Shown one piece after another: positions 38,398 to 61,345 of a stretch of 64,000 nt of DNA. The stretch is from Paludisphaera rhizosphaerae. GTDB taxonomy: Bacteria; Planctomycetota; Planctomycetia; Isosphaerales; Isosphaeraceae. The stretch's first letter is position 1; each line of letters begins with the position of its first letter. The position numbers and the translations under genes are program-made. The stretch lies in contig NZ_JAALCR010000017.1 in NCBI RefSeq assembly GCF_011065895.1, positions 1-64,000 of the forward strand. Reading direction: 5' to 3'. A model generated the notes under the pieces. The model worked only from the letters and a program-made list of their open reading frames with translations, was not told the origin of the DNA and made no database searches.

Positions 38398-39882
38398 TCA
38401 GGCCAGGATCGCCTTCACGGGATTCTGGTCGAGGACGCCGGTGAGACGCATGTCGAGGCCCTGGGACTTGAACGTCAGGCGCTTGTGGTCGATCCCCATG
38501 CAGTGGAGGATCGTGGCGTTCATGTCGTGGATGTGGACGGGGTCCTTCACGACGTTGTAGCTGAAATCGTCGGTCTCGCCGTGGACCACGCCCTTCTTGA
38601 TGCCGCCGCCGGCGAACCAGATGGGGAAGCACTTGGGGTGGTGGTCGCGGCCGTAGTTCTCGCGGCTGAGCGGGCCCTGGCAATAAATGGTGCGGCCGAA
38701 CTCGCCGCCCCAGATCACCAGGGTGTCGTCCAGCAAGCCGCGCTGCTTGAGGTCGGTGATCAGGGCGTAGGTCGCCTGGTCGACGTCCTGGCACTGGGCG
38801 GGGAGGTCGCCGGCCAGGTTGCCGTGCTGGTCCCAACCGCGGTGGAAGATCTGGACGAAGCGGACGTCGCGCTCGGCGAGGCGACGGGCGAGCAAGGCGC
38901 AGCGGGCGAACGAGCCCGGGCGGTGGACGTCGGGCCCGTACATGTCGAGGACGTGTTGGGGCTCGCTGGCGACGTCCGTCAGCTCGGGGACGCTCGTCTG
39001 CATCCGGAAGGCCATCTCGTACTGGGCGATGCGAGCCTGCGTCTCCGGATCGGTGAAGGCGTCGTACTCCTTCTGATTGAGGCGGTTGATCGCATCGAGC
39101 GTGCGCCGGCGGACCGACGAATCGACGCCCGAGGGGTTCGACAGGAAGAGCACCGGGTCGCCGGTCGCTCGCAGCGAGACCCCCTGGTGCTTGCTGGGGA
39201 GGAACCCCGCGCTCCAGAGGCGGTTGTAGAGGGCCTGCGCGGGGGTCTTGCTCGACCACGTCGGCGTCATGACGACGAACGCGGGGAGGTCGCGGTTCAT
39301 CGTCCCCAGGCCGTAGCTCAGCCAGGAGCCCAGGCTGGCGCGGCCGGGGACCTGATTGCCCGTGCAGATGTAGGTGACGGCCGGGTCGTGGTTGATCGCC
39401 TCGGTCCAGACCGTCTGCACGAGGGAGATCTCGTCGACGATCTTGGACGTCCAGGGGAGCAACTCGCTCACCCACATGCCGGACTGGCCCTGCTTGGCGA
39501 ACTTGAACTTCGAGGGCGCGACGGGGAAGCGGGCCTGGCCGCTGGTCATCGTGGTCAGGCGCTGGCCGTTGCGGATGGACTCCGGCAGGTCCTTGTCGTA
39601 CATCGCCTCCATCTTCGGCTTGTAGTCGAAGAGGTCGAGCTGCGACGGCCCGCCGTTCATGTGGAGGTAGATCGCCCGCTTGGCCTTGGGGGCGAAGTGG
39701 GGGAGGCCGGGGAGACCGCCGGTGTCGACCGGGAGCTTGGGCGCGGCCGGGTCGCCGCCGAAGGCGATCCCCTCGCGCGCCATGAGGTCGGCCAGGGCGG
39801 CGGCGCCGAGGCTCATCACGCCGGCTCGGCCGAAGAAGCTGCGACGGGTTTCCAGGTTGACTCGCTCGCGGATCGGGTCCAT
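38398..39882 (-). CDS. DUF1501 protein, Tat-exported
   Basis: 494 residues. The N-terminus has a twin-arginine motif ([11 protein letters not shown]) and a hydrophobic stretch. Family landmarks: [20 protein letters not shown], then [45 protein letters not shown] and [17 protein letters not shown]. The fold is alkaline-phosphatase-like (sulfatase/phosphatase superfamily), but the function is unproven. It lies 34 bases after the PSD1 gene, the standard planctomycete pairing; the two probably act together in the periplasm. Confidence 0.93.
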
Positions 39883-39916: not shown

Positions 39917-42900
39917 TCAGCCCCGGGTCACGACCTCGTCGAGGTTCAGGATGATGTTGCCGATCATCGTCCAGGGCGCCAGCTCGCGGGGATCGGCGGC
40001 CGGGTCGGGCTTGGTCGCGCCCGACTCGATCAGGGCCTTGGCTTCCTCGGGCTTGGCGGCGTAGTGGGCGGTGAGATCCTTGAGCGCGGACGACAGCTCG
40101 GACAACTCGCCGGCCTCCGGGGCGCGGCCGACGGCCAGGCGGAACATCCGGGCGAGGCGGTCGTCGGTGCTCCCGCCGGCCTCGCGACGGGCCCGTTCGG
40201 CCAGGGCCCGCGAGGCCTCGACGAACTGGGTCTCGTTGAGCAGCAGGAGCGCCTGGAGGGGCGTGTTGGTGCGCTCGCGGCGGACGCGGCACGACTCGCG
40301 CGAGGGGGCGTCGAGCGTGGTCATCTGCGGCGGGGGCGCGGTCCGCTTCCAGAAGGTGTAGAGACTGCGGCGGTGGACCTTCTCGACTCCTTCGTCGGCC
40401 TTGAAGTCCTTGGTGTTGCTGCCGGAGTACGCCACGGCCTCCCAGAGCCCGGACGGCTGGGGCGGCTTCACGCTCGGCCCGCCCATGGTCTCGACTAGCA
40501 GGCCCGACGAGTAGAGCGCCTGGTCGCGGATCGTCTCGGCGTCCAGGCGGAACCGGGGCCCGCGGGCGAGGAGGCGGTTTTCCGGGTCCTTCGTCAGCCC
40601 CTCGGGCGTGGCGCGGGAAGACTGGCGGTAGGCGGCCGTGGAGACCAGCCGGCGGACCATCCGCTTCACGTCCCAACCCTCCTCGCGGAACGTCGAGGTG
40701 AGCCAGTCGAGCAGCTCAGGATGGCTGGGGGGCTCGCCCTGGGCGCCGAAGTCTTCCGAGGTCTTCACCAGGCCCGTGCCGAAGACCTGCTGCCAGATCC
40801 GGTTGACCGCCACGCGGGCCGTCAGCGGGTGCTCGGGGGCGACCAGCCACTTCGCCAGCGCCAGACGGTCGGCCGGGGCGTCGGAGGGGAGGGGGGGGAG
40901 GAACGAGGGGACCGCGCGGCCGACCTTGTCCTTGGGCTGGTCGTACTCGCCGCGGTTCAGGATGAACGCCGGCTTGGGCTCGCCGGCCTTCTCACGGAAG
41001 ATCAGGGTCGTCGCGACCTGCCCGTCCAGCTTCGCCTTCTCGGCCTCGGCCTGGACGATCTCCTCGCGGATCGGGGCGACGGCATCCTCAGCGCCCGACC
41101 AGCCGGCGGCCAGGAACTGGTCGATCAGTTGCTTGCGCTCGGCGTCGGTCCGCTTGTCGCGGGCCTTCTTGAGGATCGCCTTGACCGGGTCGGGGAGCCC
41201 CGCCCCGTTGTCGACGAGGCGGTCGCGGATCCAGGCGGTCAGGTTCGGGTACGTCCGCCCTTCCTGAGGCGTGGTGGTGCGGATGCCGGATTCATCGAAG
41301 TAGACGGCGCCGTCGAACAGCGTGAACGCCCAGCCTTCGATCTGCGTCCCTTTGGCGATGCCGAGTTTCGCGACGGGGACCTCCAGCCGGACCCACTCGC
41401 CGTCGATGGGGAGGTCGCCGATCCGCAGGCGTTCGGTGGTGCCGGCCTTGCCCCAGTCGATCTTGTCGTCGCCCCAGAACGCCCGGTGCGACCAGTTGCC
41501 GGCCGTCTTCCACTGGAGCATGATCTCCTTGGGGGGCCGCCTGGGGTCGATGTAGACGTGGGCGAAGAGGACGTCCCCCTTGCCGACCTTGAGCTTCGGG
41601 CCGCCGGCCTCGATGATCTTCTGCATCAGCCCCTTGGCCTGGACGCGGAGCGCCTTGCGGCCGGTCTTGACCGGGACGTCGCCGGCGGGGGCGAAATCGC
41701 CGTCGCCCGACTCGGTCGCGCCGGCGGGGGGGCCGTCGTCGATCCAGGCGAAGTCCTCGCGAGAGACGACCTCCGCCAGCTTCTCATCGACCTTCGGGTC
41801 GTAGGCCGCGGCGATCCGCGCCTTTTCGGTCTCGGCCTTCGTCTTCAGCCCGGCGATCTTGGCGTCGGCCGCCGCCAGCGCGACGGCCTGCTCCGGGGTA
41901 GGCGTCTTCTGGAACGGCGCCCAGCGCGAGATGTTGCCGTCCATCGCGGGGCCGTCGATGTTGTTGAAGAACGCGAAGAGTTGATAATACTCTTTCTGGC
42001 TGATGGGATCGTACTTGTGATCGTGGCAGCGGGCGCAGGCGACCGTCAGACCGAGGAAGACCGAGCCGTTGGTGTCGACCTGATCGGCGACGTTCCGGGT
42101 GTAGACTTCCTGTTCGATCGAGCCTCCCTCGGAGGTCGAGACGTGGCAGCGGTTGAACCCGGTCGCGATCAGCATGTCGGCCGTGGGGTTCGGCAGCAGG
42201 TCCCCGGCGAGCTGCTCGACGATGAAGCGGTCGAAGGGCTTGTCTTCGTTGAAGGCGCGGACGACCCAGTCGCGATAGGCCCACATCTCGCGGAAGTTGT
42301 CCAGGTGCAGGCCGTGGGTGTCGCCGTATCGGGCGGCGTCGAGCCAGTAACGGGCCATGTGCTCGCCGTACCGGGGCGAGTCCAGCAGGCGGTCGACGGC
42401 CTTCTCATAGGCGGCGTCGATCCCGACGGCGGCGACCGCCGACAGGAAGGCGTCGGCCTCGGCGGGGGTCGGCGGCAGGCCGGTCAGGTCCAGTGTGACC
42501 CGGCGCAGGAGGGTTGCCGGATCGGCCTGCGGGCCGGGCTTCAGCCCCTCGGCCTCAAGGCGGCCCAGGAGGAAGGCGTCGACTGGTCCCCGTGGCCAGG
42601 CGGCGTTCGCGGGCTTGGGGGCCTCGGGTTTGCGGACGGGCTGGAAGGCCCAGTGCCCGCTCCACGGGGCGCCCTGGGCGATCCACCGCTTGAGGACGTC
42701 GATCTGGGCGGGCGTCAGCTCCTTGCCCGACTTCTTGGGGGGCATGACCATCTCGGCGTCGTCGGTCTCGACGCGGAAGATCAGGCCGCTGTTCTCCAGG
42801 TCCCCCGGAACGACCGCCGCGTCGCCGGACTTCAGCTTGGCGATCGCCCCCTCGTGGGTGTCCAGCCTCAGGCCGGCCTTGCGCTCCTTCTCGTCGAAGC

Positions 42901-43069
42901 CGTGGCAGGCGAAGCAGGCGTCGGACAGGATCGGCCGGACGTCGCGGTTGAAGTCGACCTTGGCGCCGACCGGGGCGGTGGCGGCCGGTCCCTCGGCGCG
43001 GGCCGGGACGAAAGTCGTCGCGATCAACGCGGCCGCAACGGCCGCGATCGGTCGTGGACTGAGAACCAT
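39917..43069 (-). CDS. PSD1 / planctomycete cytochrome c protein (DUF1549-DUF1553)
   Basis: 1050 residues with a signal peptide ending near VPARAEG. A cytochrome-like domain has C52FACH56. DUF1549 begins near 150 ([32 protein letters not shown]) and contains [14 protein letters not shown] near 350. DUF1553 ([55 protein letters not shown]) ends the protein. Between them, residues about 430-620 form an extra beta-rich domain ([33 protein letters not shown]) like a carbohydrate-binding jelly roll. The family is assumed to be periplasmic redox or glycan related; the function is unknown. Confidence 0.92.
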
Positions 43070-43746: not shown

Positions 43747-44166
43747 GGGTCGCTCGCCTACTGCTGAGTGGGGCGATTGAGACGGCGAGAGGATGCGTCT
43801 CGCGTCGCCGCCGCCCACCGACGCGTGAGCGTCGTGTCGAGTCAGCTTTGGATCATGCCAGCAATGTGCTTCGAAATTCACGCATGATGAAAAACATCAA
43901 CACGAGATTCCATAATAGGCTGTTGACGGCTTGTGTAAGCGGCGGTCGGTGGCCTGATCGCGCGTGGGTTGGTTTTCAAACCTGGCGGCCGACCGCTCGC
44001 CGGTGATTGCCAAGGGGGGTGGCGGGTCGGTGGACGCGGCCTTGTGTCGGCCCGCTCGACCGTGCGAGAATAAGAAGGTCGACCGAGAGTCGGCCCCTCC
44101 TTGCCAGCGCTGCGCTCTGATCCTCCCGGTTTCGGATTCCCGGCCCTCGTCGAGAGTCGCGCCCGC
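43747..44166. other. Divergent intergenic region, 420 bases
   Basis: Between the leftward PEP-CTERM gene and the rightward PSD1 gene. The part 43850-43935 is clearly richer in A and T than the rest and is the likely promoter zone. No convincing gene is seen. Confidence 0.45.
43912..43939 (-). promoter_or_regulatory. Possible promoter of the PEP-CTERM gene
   Basis: On the minus strand CTTACA and TATTAT are 16 bases apart in the AT-rich part of the divergent region, with 4/6 and 5/6 matches to the sigma70 consensus. The leader would be about 165 bases. It is a weak prediction with no second copy to support it. Confidence 0.25.
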
Positions 44167-46506
44167 ATGAAGCGTTTCATCACCAGTTTCGGGACGGTGG
44201 GACTTCTGGCCGCGTCCGCGACGATCGCGTCGGCCGACGACCGGGTCGACTACAATCGGGACGTCCGGCCGATCCTGGCGAAGGCCTGCTTCGCCTGCCA
44301 CGGGTCCGACGCCAAGGCCCGCGCGGCGGATCTGCGGCTGGACGTCCGCGACGAGGCCGTGAAATCGACCGACGACCGCGAGCCGGCCTTCGTCCCCGGC
44401 GATCCCTCGGCGAGCGTGGCGATCGAAAAGATCCTGGACGAGGACGACACCCTGCGCATGCCTCCTCGCAAGGCGGGGCCGCGGCTCGACCCCGCGCAGG
44501 TGGACGTCCTCAAACGATGGGTCGCCCAGGGGGCGGAGTATGCCGAGCACTGGGCGCTCGTCCCGCCGCAAGCGCCCGCGCAACCGGCCGTCGCTGAGGC
44601 CGGCTGGACCCGTGATTCGCTCGACGCCTTCATCCTGGCCCGGCTGGAGAGCGAGGGGATGCGGCCCTCGCCCGAGGCCGACCGCGCGACGCTCTTCCGC
44701 CGGATCAGCCTCGACCTTCGCGGCCTGCCGCCGACGATCGCCGAGGCCCGCGCCTTCGCCGAGGACCCCGCGCCCGACGCCTACGAGAAGGCCGTCGACC
44801 GTTTCCTGGCCGATCCCGCCTTCGGCGAGCGGTGGGCGCGGCCGTGGCTCGACCTGGCCCGCTACGCCGATTCCGCCGGCTACGGCTCAGACCCGCTCCG
44901 GACGATCTGGGGATATCGCGACTGGCTGATCGCCGCCCTCAACGCGAACACGCCCTTCGACCGCTTCACCATCGAGCAGATCGCCGGCGACCTCCTCCCG
45001 AACGCGACCGACCGCGACCGCGCCGCGACGGCCTTCCATCGCAACACGATGACCAACACCGAAGGCGGTACGGACGACGAGGAGTTCCGCATCGCCGCCG
45101 TGAAGGACCGGGTCGACGTGACCTTTCAGGCCTGGATGGGTCTGACGATGGGCTGCGCCAAGTGCCACTCGCACAAGTACGACCCGATCAGCCACGAAGA
45201 GTATTACTCGGCCTTCGCCGTCTTCAACCAGACGACCGACGCCGACCGCCCCGACGAGGCCCCCGTCATCCCCTGGATGACCCCCGAGGACGCGAAGCGG
45301 CTGGAAAAGATCGAAGCCCAGATCGGCAAACTCAAGAAACGGCAGGAAACCCTCGTCGGCCCGCCGGAGAAGAAGAAGCTCGACGAGATCGCCAAGTTGG
45401 AAAAATCGAAGGCCGGCTTCCCGACACTCCCCGTCATGGTCGAATTGGCCCCCGACAAGCGGCGCGTGACGCGCGTCTTGATGAAGGGGAACTTCCTCGA
45501 CCCCGGCCCCGAGGTTTCCGCCGGTCTGCCCAAGGCCCTCGGGCCGAAGCCCGAAGGCTTCGTCGACCGCCTGACACTGGCGAAGTGGCTGGTCGACCGT
45601 CGCAACCCGTTGACGGCCCGCGTGGCGGTCAACCGAACGTGGGCGACGCTCTTCGGGACGGGGATCGTCGCCACCGAGGAGGACTTCGGGACTCAGGGCG
45701 AGCCTCCCAGCCATCCTGAGCTGCTCGACCGCCTGGCCGTCGACTTCATGGAGTCGGGCTGGGACGTGAAAGGGCTGATCCGGCGGCTCGTTTGCTCGGC
45801 GACGTATCGGCAGTCGGCCCGTGCGACCAGGGAGATGCTGACGAAAGACCCGCGCAACCGACTGCTCGCCCGCTTCCCGCGCGTCCGCCTGGACGCTGAG
45901 GCCGTCCGCGATCAGGCCCTGGCGCTCTCGGGGCTGCTCGCCCGCAAGATCGGCGGGCCGAGCGTCTTCCCCGTCCAGCCTGAGGGGCTCTGGCAGGCCG
46001 CGTTCAACGGCCAGCGGACATGGAAGACGAGCGACGGGACCGACCGGCATCGTCGCGGGCTCTACACCTTCTGGCGGCGGACCGTCCCGTATCCCTCGAT
46101 GGCCGCGTTCGACGCCCCCAGCCGCGAGCTTTGCTCGGTGAAGCGCGTCCGGACCAACACGCCGCTCCAGGCGCTCGTCACGCTCAACGACCCGGTGTAC
46201 GTCGAGGCCGCGCAGGGCCTCGCGCGGAGGATGGTCCGCGATGGCGGATCGTCGCCCGAGGATCGCGTCCGCCATGGGCTGGAGTTGTGCCTCGGCCGAC
46301 CGGCCCGCGACGAGGAGGTCATCCCACTTCTGTCGCTCTACGCGGCGCAGCTCGACCGCTACCGTCGCGATCCATCCGCCGCGACCGCTCTGGCCACGGA
46401 CCCGATCGGCCCGCTCCCCGATGGGCTGGACGCAGCCGAGGCCGCCGCATGGACGGCCGTGGCCAACGTGCTCTTGAATCTCGACTCCGTTCTGACCCGA
46501 GGGTGA
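44167..46506 (+). CDS. PSD1 / planctomycete cytochrome c protein (DUF1549-DUF1553), short form
   Basis: 779 residues from the ATG at 44167, which opens a signal peptide (KRFITSFGTVGLLAASATIASA). The haem motif is CFACHGSD near residue 40. DUF1549 (DSLDAFILARLESEGM, LDLRGLPPTIAEARAF) includes CAKCHSHKYDPISHEEYYS; DUF1553 includes RVAVNRTWATLFGTGIV and RRGLYTFWRRTVPYP. It lacks the extra jelly-roll domain found in the 1050-residue relative and represents the basic architecture. The DUF1501 gene starts 4 bases after its stop, so the pair is tightly coupled. Confidence 0.93.
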   Translation: MKRFITSFGTVGLLAASATIASADDRVDYNRDVRPILAKACFACHGSDAKARAADLRLDVRDEAVKSTDDREPAFVPGDPSASVAIEKILDEDDTLRMPPRKAGPRLDPAQVDVLKRWVAQGAEYAEHWALVPPQAPAQPAVAEAGWTRDSLDAFILARLESEGMRPSPEADRATLFRRISLDLRGLPPTIAEARAFAEDPAPDAYEKAVDRFLADPAFGERWARPWLDLARYADSAGYGSDPLRTIWGYRDWLIAALNANTPFDRFTIEQIAGDLLPNATDRDRAATAFHRNTMTNTEGGTDDEEFRIAAVKDRVDVTFQAWMGLTMGCAKCHSHKYDPISHEEYYSAFAVFNQTTDADRPDEAPVIPWMTPEDAKRLEKIEAQIGKLKKRQETLVGPPEKKKLDEIAKLEKSKAGFPTLPVMVELAPDKRRVTRVLMKGNFLDPGPEVSAGLPKALGPKPEGFVDRLTLAKWLVDRRNPLTARVAVNRTWATLFGTGIVATEEDFGTQGEPPSHPELLDRLAVDFMESGWDVKGLIRRLVCSATYRQSARATREMLTKDPRNRLLARFPRVRLDAEAVRDQALALSGLLARKIGGPSVFPVQPEGLWQAAFNGQRTWKTSDGTDRHRRGLYTFWRRTVPYPSMAAFDAPSRELCSVKRVRTNTPLQALVTLNDPVYVEAAQGLARRMVRDGGSSPEDRVRHGLELCLGRPARDEEVIPLLSLYAAQLDRYRRDPSAATALATDPIGPLPDGLDAAEAAAWTAVANVLLNLDSVLTRG

Positions 46507-46510
46507 CGCC

Positions 46511-47983
46511 GTGGGATTGGAAGCGAACCTCGACCTGCGTCAGATCCTCCACATGCGGCTCGCCCGAGCGGAGACGCGCCGGCAGTTCCTGCGGCGCTCG
46601 CAGATGGGGCTGGGGGCGATTGCGCTGGCCGGGTTGACGGGCTCGACGCGGGCCGGCGGCGAGGCCGACGCCGCGCCGGCGATTCCTCGACGTCCGGCGA
46701 AAGCGAAGAGCGTTATCTATCTTCATATGTCCGGAGGTCCTCCGCAGCAGGATCTCTTCGACTACAAGCCGCTCCTGAACAAGCACCACATGGAGCCCTG
46801 TCCGGAGGAGCTTCTCAAGGGCCAGCGGTTCGCGTTCATCAAGGGGCGTCCCAAGATGCTGGGGACCCCTCACAAATTCGCCCGCCGCGGCGAGAGCGGC
46901 CAGTGGATGAGCGACATTCAGCCGAATCTCGCCGAGGTGATCGACGAGACGACGGTGATCCGGTCGATGATCACGACCGAGTTCAACCACGCGCCGGCGG
47001 AGTTGTTCATGTTCACGGGTTCGCCCCGGAACGGCGGCGCTGCAATGGGCTCGTGGATCACGTACGGGCTGGGATCGGAGAATCGCGATCTGCCCGGCTT
47101 CGTGGTGATGATCAGCGGCGGCACCGACCCGACCGGCGGCAAGGCGCTGTGGAGCCCCGGATTCCTGCCAGGGATCTTCCAGGGCGTGCAGTGTCGGACG
47201 GTGGGCGACCCGGTGCTCTACGTCGGCGACCCCAAGGGGATGACTCGCGAGGACCGGCGGCGCACGCTCGACGCGCTCGATCGTCTGAATGAGATCGAGG
47301 CCCGCGAGCACGGCGACCCCGAGACGTTGACGCGGATCGGCCAGTATGAGCTGGCCTTCCGGATGCAAGCGAGCGTCCCGGACGTGATGGACGTGGGCCG
47401 CGAACCGCAGGCGATCCTGGAGGAGTACGGCGCCGTCCCCGGCGCGGCGTCGTTCGCCAACAACTGCCTGCTCGCCCGCCGCCTGGTCGAACGGGGCGTC
47501 CGTTTCGTCCAGTTGTTCGACTGGGGATGGGACTGCCACGGCACCAGTGCGGGGAACGACATCGTCGAGTTCTTGCCGAAGAAGTGCAAAGAGGTGGATC
47601 GGCCGATCGCCGCCCTGATCCGAGACCTGAAACGCCGAGGGCTGCTCGACGAGACGATCGTGGTCTGGGGCGGCGAATTCGGCCGGACGTCGATGAATGA
47701 GGCCCGTGGCGGCTCCACGTTCCTGGGCCGCGACCACCACCCGCACTGCTTCACCCTCTGGGCGGCCGGCGGCGGCTTCAAGGCCGGCGCGGCCGTCGGC
47801 GCGACCGACGAACTCGGCTCCTCCATCGCCGTCGACCCGGTCCCCGTCCACGACTTCCAGGCCACGCTCCTGCACCTCCTGGGCCTGGACCCGTTCACCT
47901 TCCGCTACCCCGACCAGGGCCTCCAGCAACGCCTCATCGGCGTCGAGGAGGGCGTTAAGGTCCGCAAGGATCTTATAGCCTGA
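46511..47983 (+). CDS. DUF1501 protein, Tat-exported
   Basis: 490 residues from a GTG. A twin-arginine motif is present (ETRRQFLRRSQMGLGAIAL). Landmarks: [66 protein letters not shown] and GRDHHPHCFTLWAAGGG. It forms the usual pair with the PSD1 gene just upstream. The protein folds like alkaline phosphatase family members; the substrate is unknown. Confidence 0.93.
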   Translation: MGLEANLDLRQILHMRLARAETRRQFLRRSQMGLGAIALAGLTGSTRAGGEADAAPAIPRRPAKAKSVIYLHMSGGPPQQDLFDYKPLLNKHHMEPCPEELLKGQRFAFIKGRPKMLGTPHKFARRGESGQWMSDIQPNLAEVIDETTVIRSMITTEFNHAPAELFMFTGSPRNGGAAMGSWITYGLGSENRDLPGFVVMISGGTDPTGGKALWSPGFLPGIFQGVQCRTVGDPVLYVGDPKGMTREDRRRTLDALDRLNEIEAREHGDPETLTRIGQYELAFRMQASVPDVMDVGREPQAILEEYGAVPGAASFANNCLLARRLVERGVRFVQLFDWGWDCHGTSAGNDIVEFLPKKCKEVDRPIAALIRDLKRRGLLDETIVVWGGEFGRTSMNEARGGSTFLGRDHHPHCFTLWAAGGGFKAGAAVGATDELGSSIAVDPVPVHDFQATLLHLLGLDPFTFRYPDQGLQQRLIGVEEGVKVRKDLIA

Positions 47984-53912: not shown

Positions 53913-55394
53913 TCAACCGAAGAGGCGGGTGACGGCCTCGGCCTTGACCAGCTCGCGGGGCTGGTTCAGGTGGTTCATGACCATCGTGGCCGGGTCGATG
54001 CCGAAGGCGTGGTAAATGGACGCCAGCAGCTCGCCGGGGTGGACCGGGTCGGTGAGCGGGGCGGAGCCGGTCTTGTCGGACGAGCCGTGGACGTGGCCCC
54101 GGCGGATCCCCGCGCCGGCGAGAAGGGCCGTGTAGCAATACGGCCAGTGGTCGCGGCCGTCTGGGCTGTTGCCGTTGCCCGAGGTGCTGACCCCCTTGCG
54201 CGGGCTGCGGCCGAACTCGCCCACGGCGACGACGAGGGTCTCGTCGAGCATGCCGCGGCGGTCGAGGTCCGTCAGCAGGCCGGAGAGGCCCTGGTCGAGC
54301 ATCGGGCCGGACTTGTCCTTCATCCGCTCGGTCAGGCCGATGTGGTGGTCCCACGAGTGGTTGTCGGAGTTGGCGACCTTGGGCCAGATCACCTCCACGA
54401 CGCGGGCGCCGGCTTCGATGACGCGGCGGGCCAGCAGGCAGCTCTGGCCGAAGGTGTTGCGGCCGTACAGGTCGCGGGTGGGCTCGTCCTCGGCGGAGAG
54501 GTTGAACGCGTCGCGGGCGCGGCCGGATACGACCAGGCTGAGAGCACGGTCGTAGTATTCGTCGAGCTTGTAGTCGGCCACGGCCTCGTCAACGGCCTTC
54601 ATACCCGCGGAGAGGGCGTCGCGGAGCTTGGCCCGGCGCTGGAGACGGAGGGCGAAGACCTCGGGCCGGAGCTGAAGGTCGTCGACCTTGATCCGGTCCA
54701 TCTTGGTCATGTCCATGTCGTCGCCGTCGGGGAACAGCGTGTAGGGGTCGAAGGCCTTGCCGAGGAACCCGGCGGTGCCGCCCTTGCCGACGACGTTGCT
54801 CTCCTGCAGCGGCCGGGGGAGCATGACGAACGGGAGCATGGGGACGGTCTGCGGCCGCAGCCGGACGATCTGCGAACCGAAGTTGGGGAAGTCCTTGGGG
54901 CTGGGGGGCTCAAGCTGGCCTGACGGGCTGACCTTGTCGGTGGTGTACCCGGTCATCATCTGGTAGATGGCCGCGGTGTGGTTGAACAGGCCGTTGGGGG
55001 TGTAGCTCATCGAGCGGACGAGCGTGAACTTGTCGGAGACCTGCGCGAGCTTGGGCAGGATCTCCGTGAAGTCGATCCCCGGCACCTTGCTGTTGATCCG
55101 CTTGAACTGGCTGCGGACGTTCTCCGGCAGGTCGTCCTTGGGGTCCCACAGGTCCAGGTGGCTGGGCCCGCCCTGAAGGTAGACCATGATGATGCTCTTG
55201 GCCTTCCCCCACCCTGGCGCCGTCTTCGAAGGGGACGCCCCCGCGGCTCGCGCCGTGGCCGCCTGAAGCTGGAACAAGGTCCCGAGCCCGACCCCCATCA
55301 GCCCCGACCCTCCCACGCGAAGGATGTCGCGCCGGGTCGTTCCAAGCTGCGGGTCGCACAGATCCTTGCCGGACTGTCCGGGGACGATGATCAT
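53913..55394 (-). CDS. DUF1501 protein, Tat-exported
   Basis: 493 residues from the ATG at 55394; a start at 55466 would overlap the preceding gene. A twin-arginine motif is present ([18 protein letters not shown]). Landmarks: [72 protein letters not shown] and [17 protein letters not shown]. Its expected PSD1 partner is the 1703-residue gene at 56234-61345, but two unrelated small genes lie between them. Confidence 0.92.
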
Positions 55395-55446: not shown

Positions 55447-55788
55447 TTATTCGGTTGCGGATCCATTCAGAGAGAGCGGCGGGCTCGGATGCTCGAATTC
55501 CATGTTTCCGGCCGACGTCTTGAGTTCATCCGGCGTCCGCAAGAGGAGCATGTTGACGTCTGAGCTGACCTCTTCGTCCAGTTCGTCCAGGTGATCCCAG
55601 ATGAGGTCGTTTCGCTCGCTTCGGCTCAGTTTCTCGAAGCTCGGGTCGACGATCCGAATTCGGATGGAATACAGGCTGTACCGATAAATGGTGATCTGAG
55701 CAAGCGGGTGGGTCGCCTGGTATTCCTGCAGTTTGGAGGCGATCGCTTCAAGTGACGCGTCGGAGCCGCCTCGAATCTCAACGGACAT
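55447..55788 (-). CDS. BolA/KH-like small protein paired with HEPN protein
   Basis: 113 residues, no signal peptide. The centre reads [20 protein letters not shown] followed by [20 protein letters not shown], then [12 protein letters not shown]. The strand-then-SFE-then-helix order resembles the BolA fold (VSDAFEG ... RH in BolA), with Asn at the usual His position. The ATG lies 1 base after the stop of the HEPN gene, so the two are certainly co-translated. I recall similar proteins beside HEPN genes in planctomycetes and cyanobacteria, but their function is not known to me. Confidence 0.75.
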
Positions 55789-55789
55789 C

Positions 55790-56206
55790 TTAAAGTCTCC
55801 CGTGGGCCCATTCCATGATCGCATCGACCGCCTTGAGGAAGGAGCGGGCGTCTCGGTCGCTCAGGGAGGCCGTTGAGTAGCGGAGTTCCGTGGACCAATC
55901 CTCAACGAGCGTGAAAGCTCGCGTGATCTCCGCCGGAAGCGCCGCGCCTCCCCTTTCACGATACCAGGACTTCAGCCGATCGTAGTCATGAGCTTTGGCT
56001 CCTCGGAAGAGATCGAGAGCGGCGGTCGTCTGCGAGTTCGGGGTCAGCGAGAGAATCAGCGACTTGAGGACGCATTCGACGCCGTATCCCGCAAGGTAAA
56101 CGGCTCCCGTCGTGAATGAGGCTTCAAGGAGAATCTGGGCTTCATCGCGTCGCTGTGAAGCGCAGCGGAAGAACCGCCGGGCTTCCTTGGAACTTGGAAT
56201 CGCCAC
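55790..56206 (-). CDS. HEPN domain protein
   Basis: 138 residues from a GTG with GGGAGG upstream. The helical HEPN core is visible: RRDEAQILLEASFTTGAVYL, AGYGVECVLKSLILS, the HD motif in RGAKAHDYDRLKSW (R68 and H73 form an RX4H string), and VEDWSTELRYSTAS before the last helix. HEPN proteins are often RNases or nucleotidyltransferase partners in toxin-antitoxin and defence systems; here no MNT partner is present. It is followed at once by the BolA-like gene. Both genes lie between a PSD1 and a DUF1501 gene on the same strand. Confidence 0.85.
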   Translation of the reverse strand: MAIPSSKEARRFFRCASQRRDEAQILLEASFTTGAVYLAGYGVECVLKSLILSLTPNSQTTAALDLFRGAKAHDYDRLKSWYRERGGAALPAEITRAFTLVEDWSTELRYSTASLSDRDARSFLKAVDAIMEWAHGRL

Positions 56207-56233: not shown

Positions 56234-59200
56234 TCAGTGGTTGAACAGGAACTCTGGGCTGTTGATCAGCGCCCACGCGACGTCCTGCGCCGCGGTCAGC
56301 CGTCGGGTGGCGGCTTGCTGGACGCTCATCTCGACGTCGCGGCGGAGCTGGACGAGGGGCGTCGGCGGAGCGATGGGCTTCTTGGCGCTTTCGATCCGGG
56401 CGAGCAGGGCGGTGCGGGCCGGGTCGACGGGGAGCGGAGTCTTCGCCATGGCGAGGGCGGCCTGGCGGTCGAGCCAGCCCTGATCCATCCGGCGGTGGTA
56501 ACTCAGCAGTGTCTCAGTCTGGGCCGGCGTGCGGACCTCCGGCGCGACGGCCAGCACGGCGCGGAGGTGTTCGGGCAGACTCAGCCCCGGGTCGCGGCGG
56601 GCGACCGAGATCCGGAACCGCCCCAGGGTGAACGGGGGCTGGTACTGCTGGGACAGGGTGAGAGTCAGCACCGTTCCACCGGGTCCGCCGACCGGATCCT
56701 TTGTGCGGAAGGTCGCCCAGTGGGTCACGCCCGTGCGAGGGGAGACGGCCCAGCCGCGCGAGTCGCCGGAGTTGCCGTCGATCGCCTTCGCGACCTCGAA
56801 CGAAGCCTGGCTGAAATCGGCGAGCGCGTCGCGCAGGCCGACGGGTTTGGGCTGGTCCGGCGTCGCCTTGGGCGCGGCGGAAAGCTGGAATTCGGAGAGA
56901 ACGAAGTTGCCGTCGGGAGCCCGACCGGGGCCGTTCTGCGGCTGCTTGGGATCGGCCAGGACTTCCAGGCGGACGGCGGCGATCCCTTCCAGGTCGGTTG
57001 CGGCCGTGACGGTGAAGTCGGCCCTCTGGGCGGGGCCGGCGGCCGTGATCGCGCCGTCGGCTTCCTTGGTCAGCTTGAGCTTGCCCGTGGCCTTCAACTC
57101 CGAGGGATTGAGGACGACCCAGGGGTCGACGACGGCGCCGGCGTTCGCCTTTTCCCAATCGCCGACCTTGGCCGCGATCTGAGCGTCGTACGCCTTCACC
57201 TCGGCCTCGGCGGCGGCGACCTTGTCGGCCTGCTCCTTCTCACGGGAAGCGCGGCGGGGACCGTCGGTCGCGTCGAACGCGGCCAGGTCGGCCTCGGCGG
57301 CGGCGAGCGTCGCCAGTCGCTCCCGTTCGACGCGCGGGCGGTCCAGGGCGAATTCCACCTCCTTTTTGCCGAGGCTTTCGACGAGGGACTTGTGATCCTC
57401 GTCGACCTCGCGGAAGGCGGCGCGGGAGGCTTCGAGCTGCTCGGACGTGGCCGGTCGGTTCAGGATCCGCATGAACAGCTCGGAGACCAGCTTGTCGTCG
57501 TCGGGCTCGCGGGCGGTCAGGCCGGTCAGGGCGTTGGACGGGTCGGCCAGGGCGTCGGCCAGGGTCGGGCCGCTGACCAGCGCCATGACGGGGCCGAGCT
57601 GCAAGCCGCTGGACCGTTCGCACTCGCAGGCGCTCTCACGCGCCGGGCGGCCGAAGGCCGAGAGGAATCCGCTGGGGAGTTCCACACCCGAGTCCGGCAG
57701 AGCGGCCGCCCGGGTGCCGTCCGGAACGCCGGGGATCCGCGAGGTCGAACCCGTCACCAGGTTCACGGCGTCGAAGAGCACCTCGGCGGGGAGCCGCCGG
57801 GCGACCGCGTGCGAGTAGTTCGTCTTGTCGTCGGCGTTGAACTTGTTGGTCGCGACCGAAAGCTGGTACGTCCGCGAGGTGCAAATGTCGCGGAGCATCT
57901 TCCGGACGTGGAAGCCCCCCTTCACGAACTCGCTCGTCAGGTGGTCGAGCAGCTCGGGGTTGGAGGGCGGGTTGCCGGCGCGGACGTCGTCGAGCGGCTC
58001 GATCAGGCCGACGCCGAACAGGTAGCCCCACAGGCGGTTGACGTACGTCCGGGCGAAGTACGGGTTCTCGGCCGAGGTCAGCCAGGCGGCCAACTCGTCG
58101 CGACGGCTCGACCCGGATGCCGCGGGATGCTCGCATTCGAAGGGGAACTTGGGAGGCGTCGGCTGCTTGGTCCGGTCGTGGACGACCTCCTCCTTGCCGG
58201 CGTCGGAGACGATCTCGTAGAGCGGCTGGGGCTTCTCGACGGCCGTGCCGCCGATCGTCTTCCCCTCGCCGGCCGGGTCGGGCTTCAGGTCCACCTGCGC
58301 GAAGAAGGCGGCCGTCTGATAGTACTGGTCCTGAGTCCAGCGCTCGAAGGGGTGGTCGTGGCACTTGTTGCAGTTGAACCGAACCCCCAGGAAGAGCTGG
58401 GTGGTGTTCTCCATCGTCGCGCCGGGCTCGCGGAGGATCTTGTAGTACGAGGCGGCCGGGTTGGCCTTGTTGGAGCCCGCCGCCGTGACGACCTTGCGGG
58501 CGAACTCGTCGTACGGAACGTCGGCGACGACCTGCGTGCGGATCCAGTCTCGGAAGGCGGCCGCGCCCTCGACGCCCAGGAACTTGCGGTTCACCTGCAG
58601 CAGGTCGGCCCACTTGTTCGTCCAGTAGTCGATGAACGCCGGCGAGCCGATCAGGCGGTCGACGAGGGCCTCGCGCTTGGCCTTGGATTCGGCCGGGTCG
58701 GCGAGGAACGCGCGGACCTCGTCGGCGGATGGGGGGAGGCCGGTGAGATCGAGCGAGACGCGGCGGAGGAACTCGGCGTCGGTGCAGAGGCCGGAGGGGA
58801 GGATCTTCATCCGTTCCCACTTGGCGGCGACCAGGTCGTCGATCCGGCCGTAGCTTGGCGGGGTCGTCCAGGCGAAGCCAGTCCGATCGCCCATGACGGT
58901 GAGGGTCGTCGAGGCGTAGCAGCCTTCATAGCGGACCAGGACGGGAGCCTCGCCGCGGCGGAGGGCGGCGACCAACCCCAGGGGCTTGGCGGCGGCGACC
59001 TCGGTGTTGCCGCTTTCGACGAACGCCTCGCGAGTCACGTCGCGGGTCGAGCCGTCGGGGAACGAGGCGACGACCCGAAGTTGCTGGGTCGCGCCGGGGA
59101 GCGGAATGATCGGGTTCTTGGGGAAGACCTCGATCCTCGCGACCTTGGGGGAGGCCCGGTCCAGCTTCGCCCCCTGAGCGATCCAGGAGCGGACGATCTC

Positions 59201-61345
59201 GAAGTAGGCGTCGCCGGGCTTCATCAGGACACCGCCGACGTGAGGGACGACGCCCGTCGGCTTGTCGAGCATCAGGCTGTCCTCGGGCGAGGCCAGGTTG
59301 ACGCGGCGGCCGGCGACGTCGTCGGTGAAGGCGGTCACGTCGTAGAGCGGGTCATACCCGCGGAGCGACAGCTTGAAGCCGTTCTTCCCCTGGGCGGAGC
59401 CGTGGCAGGTCCCCTGGTTGCAGCCCAGTCGCGAGAGGACCGGATTGACGTCGCGGACGAAGTCGGGCCGCATCGGAGCGCTCAGCCCCTCGACCTTCGC
59501 GGCGACCTCGACGGTCTTGCCGCCGATCGCCAGGACGACCTTGGCGGAGCCGTCCGCCTTCGGTTTCACCAGGCCGGCGTGCGAGACCTCGACGGCGTCC
59601 CCCTCGACCTTCATCTCGACCATCCGGGTGGCGTCGAAAGCGTCGCCGGAGGCGAGCTTCGCCGTGATGACGAGTTGCGCGTAGGAGGCGGGCGATCTCA
59701 GCGAGACCTCGCGGGGCTCGACTTCCAGGGCGACGACCTCGCCGGCCGGCGGCGTCTCGGAGCTTGCCGGCTCCTCGGGGAGATTCAGCCGAGCGGGCGA
59801 GCCGGCGGCGGCGAGGTTCCCCTCGGCCGAGCCGGCGATTGGGACCGGGACGAACTCCTTGATGAGCGAGCCGGTCTCCGGATCGATCAGGCGGACCAGG
59901 CCGTCGGAGCCGGCGGCGGCCAGCACCTTGCGGTCGGGGCGGAAGTCGACGGCGTACTGGCCGGCGGGGGCCTTGAATCGCGAGACCTCGCGCACGCCCT
60001 CCTTGTGATAGGCGTCGACCGCCGCGTTCTCCTCGGCCGACCGCGCGGTGACCACCTTGGTCTGGATCTTCTTGATCGCCTCGGGGTATTCGTCGCCGAA
60101 CTCATACGAGTAGACGGCGATCTCCCCCGAAGTCCCGTCGAGGCTGCCGGCGGCGGCGATTCGCAGCCCGTCCGGGCTGACGGCCACGCCCATCACGCGG
60201 CCAGGCAGGGAGGGGAGTTCGCGCATCAGGTTCGAGTCGTCGCCGATGACGCGCTGGGTCTGGCGGAAGATCCGGTAGACGCGGGGCTGGCCGTCAGAGC
60301 CGCCGATCACCAACTCATCGCGCTTCGGGTGCCGGGTGATCGCCGACAGCCCTCCCTTGAGCGCGCCGGGGGTGATGGAGGTCACGTTGTCCACGAATCG
60401 CTGTTCGGCGATCTCCGTCAGCTTGGCCGTCATGTCGCGGCCGACCGAGACGAGGTGCGAGCCGTCAGCCGAGAAGACCGTGCCAAGCGCCCAGTCGGAG
60501 TGCGAGCCCATGAACAGGACCTGAGCCCCGGTCTTGGCGTCGATGGCGCGGACCGAGTTGTCAGTGCAGCCGAAGGCGACCTTGGTTCCGTCGGGCGACC
60601 AGCTCGCACCGAAGGCGACGTCGAACGAGACCGAGGTCGACAGCAGGAGCTTCCGCTTGGCGACGTCCCAGATCTGGATCTCGCCTCGGCGGGCGGGGTC
60701 GCCGCCGGTCGCCGCGAGCTTCGAGCCGTCGGGCGAGAAGGCCAGCGAGTCGACCCGCTCGGACAGGCCGACGAGGCGGGCGACTAGCTCGGAGCCGTCG
60801 GCCTTCCAGAGGACGATCTCATGGAAGCCGGCGACGGCCAGCAGCGAGCCGTCGGGCGAGAAGGTCAGGGCGGGGATGACGGGGGGGCGGGAGTACTCGG
60901 GCGGGTGCTCGGCGTCGACCTTCGACCCCGCGCCTGCGGGCGTGTCGTCGACGGCGCCCTGGGCGATCCAGGCAGTGATGGTCTCGATCTCGGCCTTCGA
61001 GAGCGGCGGCGCGTTGCGGGGCATCTCGGCCTTGCCGTCGTGGGGCGTGACCATCTCCACGAGCGAGCTCTCGCCGGGTTTGCCGGCGACGACCGCTGCA
61101 CCCTCCGTCTCGCCCCCCTTCAACAGCCTGTCGAACGACGTCATTACATAGCCGCCGCCCGCCTTGGCCGGCTGGTGGCAGCCCTGGCAGCGGCCCTGGA
61201 GGATCGGTCGGACCTGCTTGTCGTAGCTGACCTTCGGCGGTTCGTCGGCGATCGCCGATGAGGTCAGAAACGCCAGCCCCGCCAGAGCCAAAGCCCCGAC
61301 CCGGCCGCGCCCCGGCCGGCCCATTTCGCGCGTCGTTCGACCCAT
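56234..61345 (-). CDS. Giant PSD1 cytochrome protein with WD40 and Ig-like domains
   Basis: 1703 residues with a signal peptide (VGALALAGLAFLTSSAIA). Order seen: cytochrome-like C53QGCH57; a WD40 propeller about 160-510 (LTFSPDGSLLAVAG, LAFSPDGSKLAATGG); an Ig-like BIG2 domain about 545-630; a second planctomycete cytochrome region about 640-740 (CNQGTCHG); another Ig-like domain; DUF1549 about 850-1060 ([25 protein letters not shown]); DUF1553 from about 1110, split by a coiled coil (RERLATLAAAEADLAAFDA) and a jelly-roll-like insert; then AQDVAWALINSPEFLFNH at the end. Presumed periplasmic; the function is unknown. Confidence 0.9.
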   Translation of the reverse strand: MGRTTREMGRPGRGRVGALALAGLAFLTSSAIADEPPKVSYDKQVRPILQGRCQGCHQPAKAGGGYVMTSFDRLLKGGETEGAAVVAGKPGESSLVEMVTPHDGKAEMPRNAPPLSKAEIETITAWIAQGAVDDTPAGAGSKVDAEHPPEYSRPPVIPALTFSPDGSLLAVAGFHEIVLWKADGSELVARLVGLSERVDSLAFSPDGSKLAATGGDPARRGEIQIWDVAKRKLLLSTSVSFDVAFGASWSPDGTKVAFGCTDNSVRAIDAKTGAQVLFMGSHSDWALGTVFSADGSHLVSVGRDMTAKLTEIAEQRFVDNVTSITPGALKGGLSAITRHPKRDELVIGGSDGQPRVYRIFRQTQRVIGDDSNLMRELPSLPGRVMGVAVSPDGLRIAAAGSLDGTSGEIAVYSYEFGDEYPEAIKKIQTKVVTARSAEENAAVDAYHKEGVREVSRFKAPAGQYAVDFRPDRKVLAAAGSDGLVRLIDPETGSLIKEFVPVPIAGSAEGNLAAAGSPARLNLPEEPASSETPPAGEVVALEVEPREVSLRSPASYAQLVITAKLASGDAFDATRMVEMKVEGDAVEVSHAGLVKPKADGSAKVVLAIGGKTVEVAAKVEGLSAPMRPDFVRDVNPVLSRLGCNQGTCHGSAQGKNGFKLSLRGYDPLYDVTAFTDDVAGRRVNLASPEDSLMLDKPTGVVPHVGGVLMKPGDAYFEIVRSWIAQGAKLDRASPKVARIEVFPKNPIIPLPGATQQLRVVASFPDGSTRDVTREAFVESGNTEVAAAKPLGLVAALRRGEAPVLVRYEGCYASTTLTVMGDRTGFAWTTPPSYGRIDDLVAAKWERMKILPSGLCTDAEFLRRVSLDLTGLPPSADEVRAFLADPAESKAKREALVDRLIGSPAFIDYWTNKWADLLQVNRKFLGVEGAAAFRDWIRTQVVADVPYDEFARKVVTAAGSNKANPAASYYKILREPGATMENTTQLFLGVRFNCNKCHDHPFERWTQDQYYQTAAFFAQVDLKPDPAGEGKTIGGTAVEKPQPLYEIVSDAGKEEVVHDRTKQPTPPKFPFECEHPAASGSSRRDELAAWLTSAENPYFARTYVNRLWGYLFGVGLIEPLDDVRAGNPPSNPELLDHLTSEFVKGGFHVRKMLRDICTSRTYQLSVATNKFNADDKTNYSHAVARRLPAEVLFDAVNLVTGSTSRIPGVPDGTRAAALPDSGVELPSGFLSAFGRPARESACECERSSGLQLGPVMALVSGPTLADALADPSNALTGLTAREPDDDKLVSELFMRILNRPATSEQLEASRAAFREVDEDHKSLVESLGKKEVEFALDRPRVERERLATLAAAEADLAAFDATDGPRRASREKEQADKVAAAEAEVKAYDAQIAAKVGDWEKANAGAVVDPWVVLNPSELKATGKLKLTKEADGAITAAGPAQRADFTVTAATDLEGIAAVRLEVLADPKQPQNGPGRAPDGNFVLSEFQLSAAPKATPDQPKPVGLRDALADFSQASFEVAKAIDGNSGDSRGWAVSPRTGVTHWATFRTKDPVGGPGGTVLTLTLSQQYQPPFTLGRFRISVARRDPGLSLPEHLRAVLAVAPEVRTPAQTETLLSYHRRMDQGWLDRQAALAMAKTPLPVDPARTALLARIESAKKPIAPPTPLVQLRRDVEMSVQQAATRRLTAAQDVAWALINSPEFLFNH

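Follow-up and report, generated by a model that had tools for sequence, protein, structure and literature searches.

Why do two small genes lie between a PSD1/DUF1553-type gene and a DUF1501 gene in Paludisphaera rhizosphaerae, when the two other PSD1/DUF1501 pairs of the same stretch of DNA are almost contiguous? The window, i.e., the whole stretch of 64,000 nucleotides that was analysed, belongs to a draft genome of 8.05 Mb in 110 contigs. An earlier note had read the two genes as a HEPN gene and a BolA-like gene inserted into a PSD1-DUF1501 operon, and both open reading frames are indeed present at that place (Table 1), with gaps of 27 bases between PSD1 and HEPN, 1 base between HEPN and partner, and 52 bases between partner and DUF1501, the last counted to the ATG at 55394, which is taken as the start of DUF1501. 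The other two pairs (39917..43069/38398..39882 and 44101..46506/46511..47983) are separated by 34 and 4 bases, respectively, as had been claimed. A Shine-Dalgarno-like, purine-rich stretch precedes the start codon of the HEPN gene as well as that of the partner. The same arrangement is present in Planctomycetales bacterium 71-10 (L073) and in Aquisphaera insulae (L076; Isosphaeraceae).

Table 1. Positions of the inserted genes and their flanks in the window, and of two examples of a second small gene family in the loci named
Feature	Position	Strand	Remarks
HEPN gene (P0001)	55790..56206	minus	GTG start; 138 aa; putative effector
Partner gene (P0002)	55447..55788	minus	ATG start; 113 aa; BolA/KH-II fold; putative antitoxin or regulator
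PSD1/DUF1553-type gene	56234..61345	minus	1703 aa; upstream flank of the insertion, outside the module
DUF1501 gene	53913..55394	minus	493 aa; downstream flank of the insertion, outside the module
Second small family, L144	6360-6758		alignment A5
Second small family, L154	5369-5773		alignment A5

The first of the two genes encodes a member of the HEPN superfamily, scoring 36.7 bits against the Pfam HEPN family (PF05168; cut-off 22), and it matches the HEPN component A of the PADLOC system PDC-M28 (PDC-M28A) with an E-value of 7.2e-8. The predicted model has a mean pLDDT of 95.6, and solved HEPN structures come first when it is compared with Foldseek, where the best match is 1wol (E 3.5e-3) and none reaches E 0.001. 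Superposition with VIA-align gives Z-scores of 16.2 for 1ufb (rmsd 1.9, 119 aligned), 14.9 for the sacsin HEPN domain 3o10 (rmsd 2.3, 122 aligned), 14.1 for 1wol and 13.5 for 2hsb, all above the warning level of about 13 that applies to helical bundles. Residue conservation was counted in 64 rows, i.e., the window protein and 63 of 68 paired loci, after removal of five rows that were broken or partial. No variation is seen at E44, K48, H73 and W104, and R109 and Y110 are each present in 63/64 rows. E44 and K48 are located in the helix formed by residues 32–53 (E44-x3-K48), and H73 in an insert (residues 57–84) between helices 2 and 3. The R68-x4-H73 string highlighted in the earlier note does exist, and its histidine is invariant, but R68 is found in 34/64 rows, compared with 64/64 for E44/K48 and 63/64 for R109, and the string as an active site is therefore rejected on conservation. 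It precedes helix 3, and Y75, which follows it, is present in 19/64 rows.

The usual HEPN motif Rx4-6H is located at the end of helix 3 (PMC3710099, in its passages on HEPN motifs). The window HEPN has no histidine at positions +5 to +7 after R109, and the canonical motif is present in 5/64 rows. The same passages describe an Ex3[KR] motif, with the acidic residue in helix 2 of HEPNs, and report that AF0298-type HEPN-T proteins and AbiV lack the motif histidine and have another conserved histidine, placed in the insert that separates helices 2 and 3, where it forms a possible alternative active site (PMC3710099). The window HEPN fits this AF0298/AbiV type: the arginine is kept, the motif histidine is absent, and both the insert histidine and Ex3[KR] are present. 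Lacking the canonical Rx4-6H, the protein may also be non-catalytic. Its net charge is +2, and the HEPN is positively charged in 61/68 standalone pairs.

As for the partner, a BolA/KH-like core had been suggested, and the family profile and the fold comparison bear this out. A profile of 66 rows (A3; the window protein and 65 of 68 relatives, with three longer rows dropped) finds BolA proteins among the PDB sequences from E 1.5e-4; eleven of its twelve best matches are named as BolA proteins or domains, and the remaining one (XC975) is named as hypothetical. With planctomycete rows alone (A1), the best E-value is 0.0076, and 8/10 matches carry the name BolA, with XC975 as one of the others. 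The single sequence reaches 13.0 bits against BolA (PF01722; E 0.14, cut-off 25.7), which places it outside the BolA family proper. The predicted model (pLDDT 87.2, with a C-terminal tail of low confidence) is built on an alpha-beta-beta-alpha-alpha-beta core, and Foldseek lists BolA first, with a best E-value of 1.8e-3 and no match reaching E 0.001. Eight of the nine best rows in VIA-align are BolA (1v60, Z 8.8, rmsd 3.6, 93 aligned; 4pui, 8.4; 4pug, 8.4), and ribosomal S3 KH parts and some nucleotidyltransferases rank below them. Because the BolA Z-scores are only slightly above the 7–8 that may be attained by unrelated models, it is the sequence profile that carries weight. F51, R59 and P86-x-E88 form a sequence core common to the partner and BolA. 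The partner is a divergent BolA/KH-II-fold protein. Within the host genome, the sole match of the A3 profile at E <= 0.001 is the window partner, and no ordinary BolA is picked up.

That the module is without an MNT partner also holds. No nucleotidyltransferase family is listed for the window partner at E <= 10, and the nucleotidyltransferase motif G[SG]-x-SDxD occurs in 0/66 partners in its strict form and in 2/66 in a loose one. Nucleotidyltransferase folds give Z-scores of 7.0 (2rff), 6.3 (1ylq) and 5.9 (the MNT antitoxin 8xeo), below the 8.8 of BolA. An MNT-like partner is rejected, despite the presence of these nucleotidyltransferases in the fold list.

The metal ligands of BolA proteins, as set out in part of PMC7538681, are an invariant histidine near β3 and a histidine or cysteine in the β1–β2 loop. 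The window partner has histidines at 27, 66 and 100 only and no cysteine, and none of the histidines is found in the β1–β2 loop or at the start of β3. With both ligands missing, an Fe-S function of the window partner is rejected. Three partners from Poribacteria (L124, L135 and L143) have a histidine near the start of β3; a rough pattern placed a histidine near β3 in 8/61 rows, of which 5 were judged by eye to be anchored on the wrong P-x-E, and this position is therefore read only in the three rows from Poribacteria and in the window protein. The partner is acidic, with a charge of -10 for the window protein and a median charge of -5 over the set (n=68); it is negative in 55/68 standalone pairs, and a positive HEPN and a negative partner occur together in 49/68. 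A conserved acidic C-terminal tail is found, by a strict pattern, in 55/68 partners. The opposite charges and the acidic tail speak for a protein–protein partner and against an RNA binder.

The two genes form a conserved unit. Scoring how often they are neighbours, as the earlier note had proposed, places 38 of 42 partner matches in 198 Planctomycetia genomes directly downstream of a HEPN match on the same strand. The partner matches are distributed over 37 genomes, and the HEPN search of the same set gave 81 matches in 54 genomes. Of the 81, the partner-linked HEPNs hold ranks 1–37 and 39, so pairing is a feature of the close HEPN relatives and is absent from the distant ones. Among the unpaired partner matches, one (G163, L185) is intact with no HEPN match within the 3.2 kb read, one (G012) is a decayed partner-like frame with no HEPN match, one (G147) is a divergent BolA-like gene that adjoins another HEPN (PF18735, E 4.5e-4, below the cut-off), and one (G028, a 61-residue match) yielded no partner frame on follow-up. 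The HEPN is followed by the partner in all of the 30 Planctomycetia loci that were read, i.e., the best-scoring of the 81 HEPN matches except one or more second copies. Scanning genome contigs with a profile of these HEPNs (A2; 29 of 30 rows, as one was broken) yielded 349 relatives. The BolA-like partner is present in 68 of the best 80 that were kept, and in 44/68 the gap is +1 or -4 bases. The planctomycete partner alignment (A1, 28 of 30 rows) finds matches in 10 of 392 genomes of the phylum, with 12 candidates scored per genome, three of them outside the class; in two of these three (G384 and G331) a HEPN match adjoins the partner, and the third (G265, L191) is an ordinary BolA at 72.2 bits (cut-off 25.7). 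When the window partner was used as a single sequence, the genome-contigs scan gave no match and none was found among plasmid records. The HEPN matches two plasmid records and one phage record, all 29–33% identical, and two viral contigs weakly.

A second small protein family occupies the other 12 of the best 80 HEPN loci (Table 1), and its gene shares 22 bases with the end of the HEPN gene. Its hosts include Ornithinibacillus, Acidobacteria, Nocardia, Spirosoma and others, and it is also found on an Acinetobacter plasmid. A profile comparison with the BolA-like partner gives a probability of 33% and an E-value of 4.7e-4, and the 11 PDB sequences listed for its own profile at E <= 5 include no BolA; it is probably another type of HEPN partner that is not clearly related to the BolA-like one. 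At the divergent G147 locus (L188 483-1738), three overlapping genes encode a weak RiboL-PSP-HEPN match, a BolA-like protein and a glutaredoxin-like protein (DUF836, E 3.5e-11). Since BolA and glutaredoxin are known partners, this gene row may be an intermediate between a redox BolA and a HEPN partner.

At the PSD1-DUF1501 junction, the pair is a patchy, foreign-looking insertion of low GC content. In 42 of the 45 genomes of the family, a single close orthologue of the DUF1501 gene is present (E <= 1e-150), and the junction was surveyed in the best 30 DUF1501 loci. The pair is present in four of these, the window genome and G064 from one genus and G095 and G111 from another, and in 18 the junction is empty, with the genes 13–163 bases apart. 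In one (G151), a DUF29 gene is found instead (L193 2631-3080, E 3.5e-16), which shows that the junction tolerates insertions, and seven loci have no clear PSD1 gene upstream. Within the window's own genus, four further genomes have an empty junction. Some genomes with an empty junction (G131, G171 and G068) have the pair elsewhere. In a HEPN tree of 75 distinct rows, built without six rows that were broken or partial and without the duplicates shared by two locus sets, the same-site insertions need 2 changes and may have a single origin. The GC3 values of the HEPN and partner genes (0.69 and 0.72) differ from those of PSD1 and DUF1501 (0.92 and 0.94), and the contrast is repeated in the three other genomes with the pair at the junction. 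Similarly, dS between the window and L073 is 1.56/1.67 for HEPN/partner and 0.38/0.29 for PSD1/DUF1501, and between the window and L076 it is 1.96/1.67 and 0.61/0.41, respectively. Composition may explain part of this difference, and because a flank GC3 of 0.92–0.99 in itself lowers dS, independent transfer is not claimed.

Among 80 non-redundant pair loci, the HEPN is broken in five (L049, L094, L099, L125 and L133) and the partner in none, with L091 (flagged at the N-terminus only) and L095 (a frame that runs past the usual end) counted as intact. The loci were found through the HEPN, which works against seeing broken HEPNs. The chance that all five lesions fall in the HEPN is about 0.05 if lesions are distributed by gene length, and these are draft MAGs, so assembly errors may contribute to the count. 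Tandem partner copies after a single HEPN were also observed, two in L085 and L124 and three in L135.

The surroundings of the pair were compared in 20 pair loci (101 neighbour genes, none in L210) and 20 control stretches from the same genomes (106 genes), a coarse test since the simple gene finder that was used misses genes. At E <= 1e-10 the pair neighbours match 93 PADLOC families and the controls 43, where a single neighbour in L194 accounts for matches to 31 families and four genes of G193 (L201) for matches to 56. Among the matches listed (25 families of each set), PD-T4-6 models, which we take to be of the serine/threonine-kinase type, appear for both pair and control genes, matches to MzaA are found for two pair neighbours (best E 2.9e-61), and a match to a CARF/RtcR-type model for one. 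G193 is a true defence locus, where a DpdE/DrmD-like helicase (E 1.1e-234) is encoded on one side of the pair and a DrmMI/type IIG-like protein on the other, and a ThsB-like gene is nearby; this is the one neighbourhood of the 20 in which a defence island was traced. Of the 140 Pfam families among the pair neighbours, the 25 that are listed belong for the most part to metabolism, sigma factors or the PSD1/DUF1501 type. In G041, G188 and G057 (L205, L206 and L208; two genera of one other planctomycete family), the same gene adjoins the pair, probably a lysA-like decarboxylase according to Pfam counts. A broad enrichment of defence islands is not seen in the 20 neighbourhoods, and the pair is often placed among ordinary genes.

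A larger form of the module is found in five Streptomyces and two cyanobacterial loci, where in 7/7 cases a protein of 881–893 aa takes the place of the partner beside the HEPN. The first ~110 residues of these proteins are a BolA-like domain, and in the two that were scanned (L141 and L146) this domain is followed by AAA_KGGVGR (E 3e-45 and 3.5e-55) and ATPase_Sll1717 (E 2.8e-32 and 1.7e-39); the ATPase part of L141 aligns to all seven fused proteins. Both scanned proteins match PDC-M28B and PDC-M28C. For PDC-M28B, the L141 match covers residues 27–316 and so begins inside the BolA-like part, and that of L146 starts at 125, beyond this part. PDC-M28 corresponds to the PADLOC models PDLC04558-04561, where 'PDC' stands for phage defence candidate. 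On a Nostoc plasmid, a HEPN-like gene is followed by an 890-aa 'ParA family protein', near hsdR, and this is the large form as judged by length and name. In the fetched flanks of 61 unfused pairs, the ATPase query has no match, and in the window's own genome it gives nothing convincing, the sole match being one of 55 residues (E 1.8e-4) on another contig. The window partner has no PADLOC match listed at E <= 10 and does not qualify as a PDC-M28 B or C ATPase. The window pair is thus an ATPase-less relative of the candidate system PDC-M28. Among the papers listed in a search of the open-access PMC literature (without bioRxiv), there was no description of the two-gene, ATPase-less form, no PDC-M28 and no link between HEPN and BolA. 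The earlier suggestion of an undescribed module can accordingly be kept for the two-gene form, but not for its components, as the HEPN matches PDC-M28A and the partner domain is N-terminal in the PDC-M28B/C matches.

Based on the gene and protein sequences, we propose that the pair is a toxin–antitoxin-like module of an abortive or defence type, in which the acidic BolA-fold protein restrains the basic HEPN, and we give this proposal an even chance of being right. A HEPN dimer would cut or block RNA by means of H73 together with R109 and E44/K48. The acidic partner, with its start codon 1 base further on, would bind the basic HEPN, perhaps with its conserved C-terminal tail covering the active site, and would keep the HEPN off until its release by a stress or an invasion. 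The HEPN switch would be set by the ATPases in PDC-M28, and in the two-gene form release would have to depend on turnover of the partner or on some other signal. We count for the proposal the linkage, the conserved HEPN residues, the fusion, the opposite charges, the decay that is confined to the HEPN, the intact partner without HEPN (L185), the patchy insertion, and the G193 and Nostoc contexts. Counted against it are the missing Rx4-6H, a gene order with the effector first, which differs from that of MNT-HEPN modules, the one defence neighbourhood in 20, and the retention of the pair beside the lysA-like gene in two genera, which is unlike a roaming module. The same applies to the small number of decay events (five, P ~0.05, in draft MAGs) and to the BolA assignment, where planctomycete rows give a best E-value of 0.0076, and to the Foldseek comparisons, which have nothing at E 0.001 for either model. 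A broader scenario, in which BolA-fold proteins have been recruited as antitoxins or gatekeepers of HEPNs, and a two-gene conflict module of a class not described before grew into PDC-M28 by the addition of the KGGVGR and Sll1717 ATPases or is what remained after their loss, seems to us a little less probable than an even chance.

Among other explanations, we consider it somewhat unlikely that the pair is an anti-phage effector and sensor instead of an addiction module, either PDC-M28 minus its ATPases or the core from which that system grew, with a BolA-like domain that detects a change caused by the phage and then licenses the HEPN. Such a role would agree with the PDC-M28A match of the HEPN, with the PDC-M28B match of L141 that begins inside the BolA-like part, with the contexts in G193 and on the Nostoc plasmid, and with divergence that is fast relative to the flanks. 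A precedent for accessory control of a HEPN is offered by the validated system DS-11, which needs both its CBS and its HEPN domain according to the part of PMC13092281 that describes it. It is opposed by the single defence island in 20 neighbourhoods, by the lack of such an ATPase in the flanks fetched for the 61 unfused pairs and of a convincing one in the own genome, by the weakness of the HEPN matches in phages and viral contigs, and by the L146 match to PDC-M28B, which starts only after the BolA-like part. Less probable still, and unlikely in our judgement, is a non-toxic regulator, where a non-catalytic, RNA-binding HEPN and a KH-like helper would tune expression of the host operon. Inactive HEPNs are regarded as likely RNA binders in the relevant passages of PMC3710099, the canonical Rx4-6H is absent here, the partner fold resembles the KH part of ribosomal S3, and the pair is found in the PSD1-DUF1501 operon of two genera, with two further genera having it next to a lysA-like gene. 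The acidity of the partner is unlike an RNA binder, however, E44, K48 and H73 are invariant, and the host operons vary by lineage, with the PSD1-DUF1501 junction empty in most of the loci surveyed (18/30).

A BolA-type redox or Fe-S protein that works with glutaredoxin and has the HEPN as its client is very improbable. The BolA fold and the gene row at L188 would suit it, but the window partner has no cysteine and no histidine at the ligand places (positions as given in part of PMC7538681). Chance insertion of two unrelated small genes has a negligible probability; the junction has also taken up a DUF29 gene in G151, yet the 38/42 linkage in 198 Planctomycetia genomes refutes it, and the pair recurs in several contexts and has a fused form elsewhere. 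A BolA fold without Fe-S ligands that serves as the steady partner of HEPN proteins would have taken on a new role for this fold. The standalone pair may represent the core of PDC-M28 minus its ATPases, so that effector and gatekeeper become testable in two small genes. The locus also suggests that conflict-type genes may reside inside ordinary planctomycete operons, where searches for defence islands would miss them.

Several known systems come close, and one of them is PDC-M28. Both this system and the window pair have a HEPN of one family first in the operon and a tight junction, and the BolA-like domain forms the N-terminus of proteins that match PDC-M28B; the window pair differs in the absence of the KGGVGR and Sll1717 ATPases and in a standalone partner with a conserved acidic tail. 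HEPN/MNT (HepT-MntA) is likewise a two-gene HEPN module with a small α/β partner. Unlike in HEPN/MNT, the window partner has a BolA fold and is not a nucleotidyltransferase, and the HEPN comes first. The HepT motif is Rx4HxY, which the window string R68-x4-H73-x-Y75 resembles, but this string is positioned before helix 3, and R68 and Y75 are poorly kept (34/64 and 19/64 rows). BolA proteins have been studied as Fe-S and iron regulators. As for BolA/YrbA, the fold and the sequence core are shared with the window partner, which differs in lacking both metal/Fe-S ligands, in scoring below the Pfam cut-off, and in having a HEPN as its operon partner. A dyad of the MAE_18760 HEPN and a ParA/Soj ATPase has been proposed as toxin and antitoxin (PMC3710099). 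In this dyad, too, a HEPN is located beside a ParA-like ATPase, a parallel to the fused PDC-M28 form, but the HEPN is of another family with the canonical motif, and no BolA-like part is described in the passages of PMC3710099 that concern it. With AbiV and AF0298-type HEPN-T, the window HEPN shares the E-x3-K in helix 2, the histidine between helices 2 and 3, the arginine late in helix 3 and the absence of the Rx4-6H histidine, as described in part of PMC3710099. The fold match to AbiV (Z 7.4–7.5) is far below those to 1ufb and 2hsb and within the chance range for helical bundles. AbiV is titled in the PDB as an RNase in a two-component antiphage system, and the HEPN of the window differs from it in having another partner.
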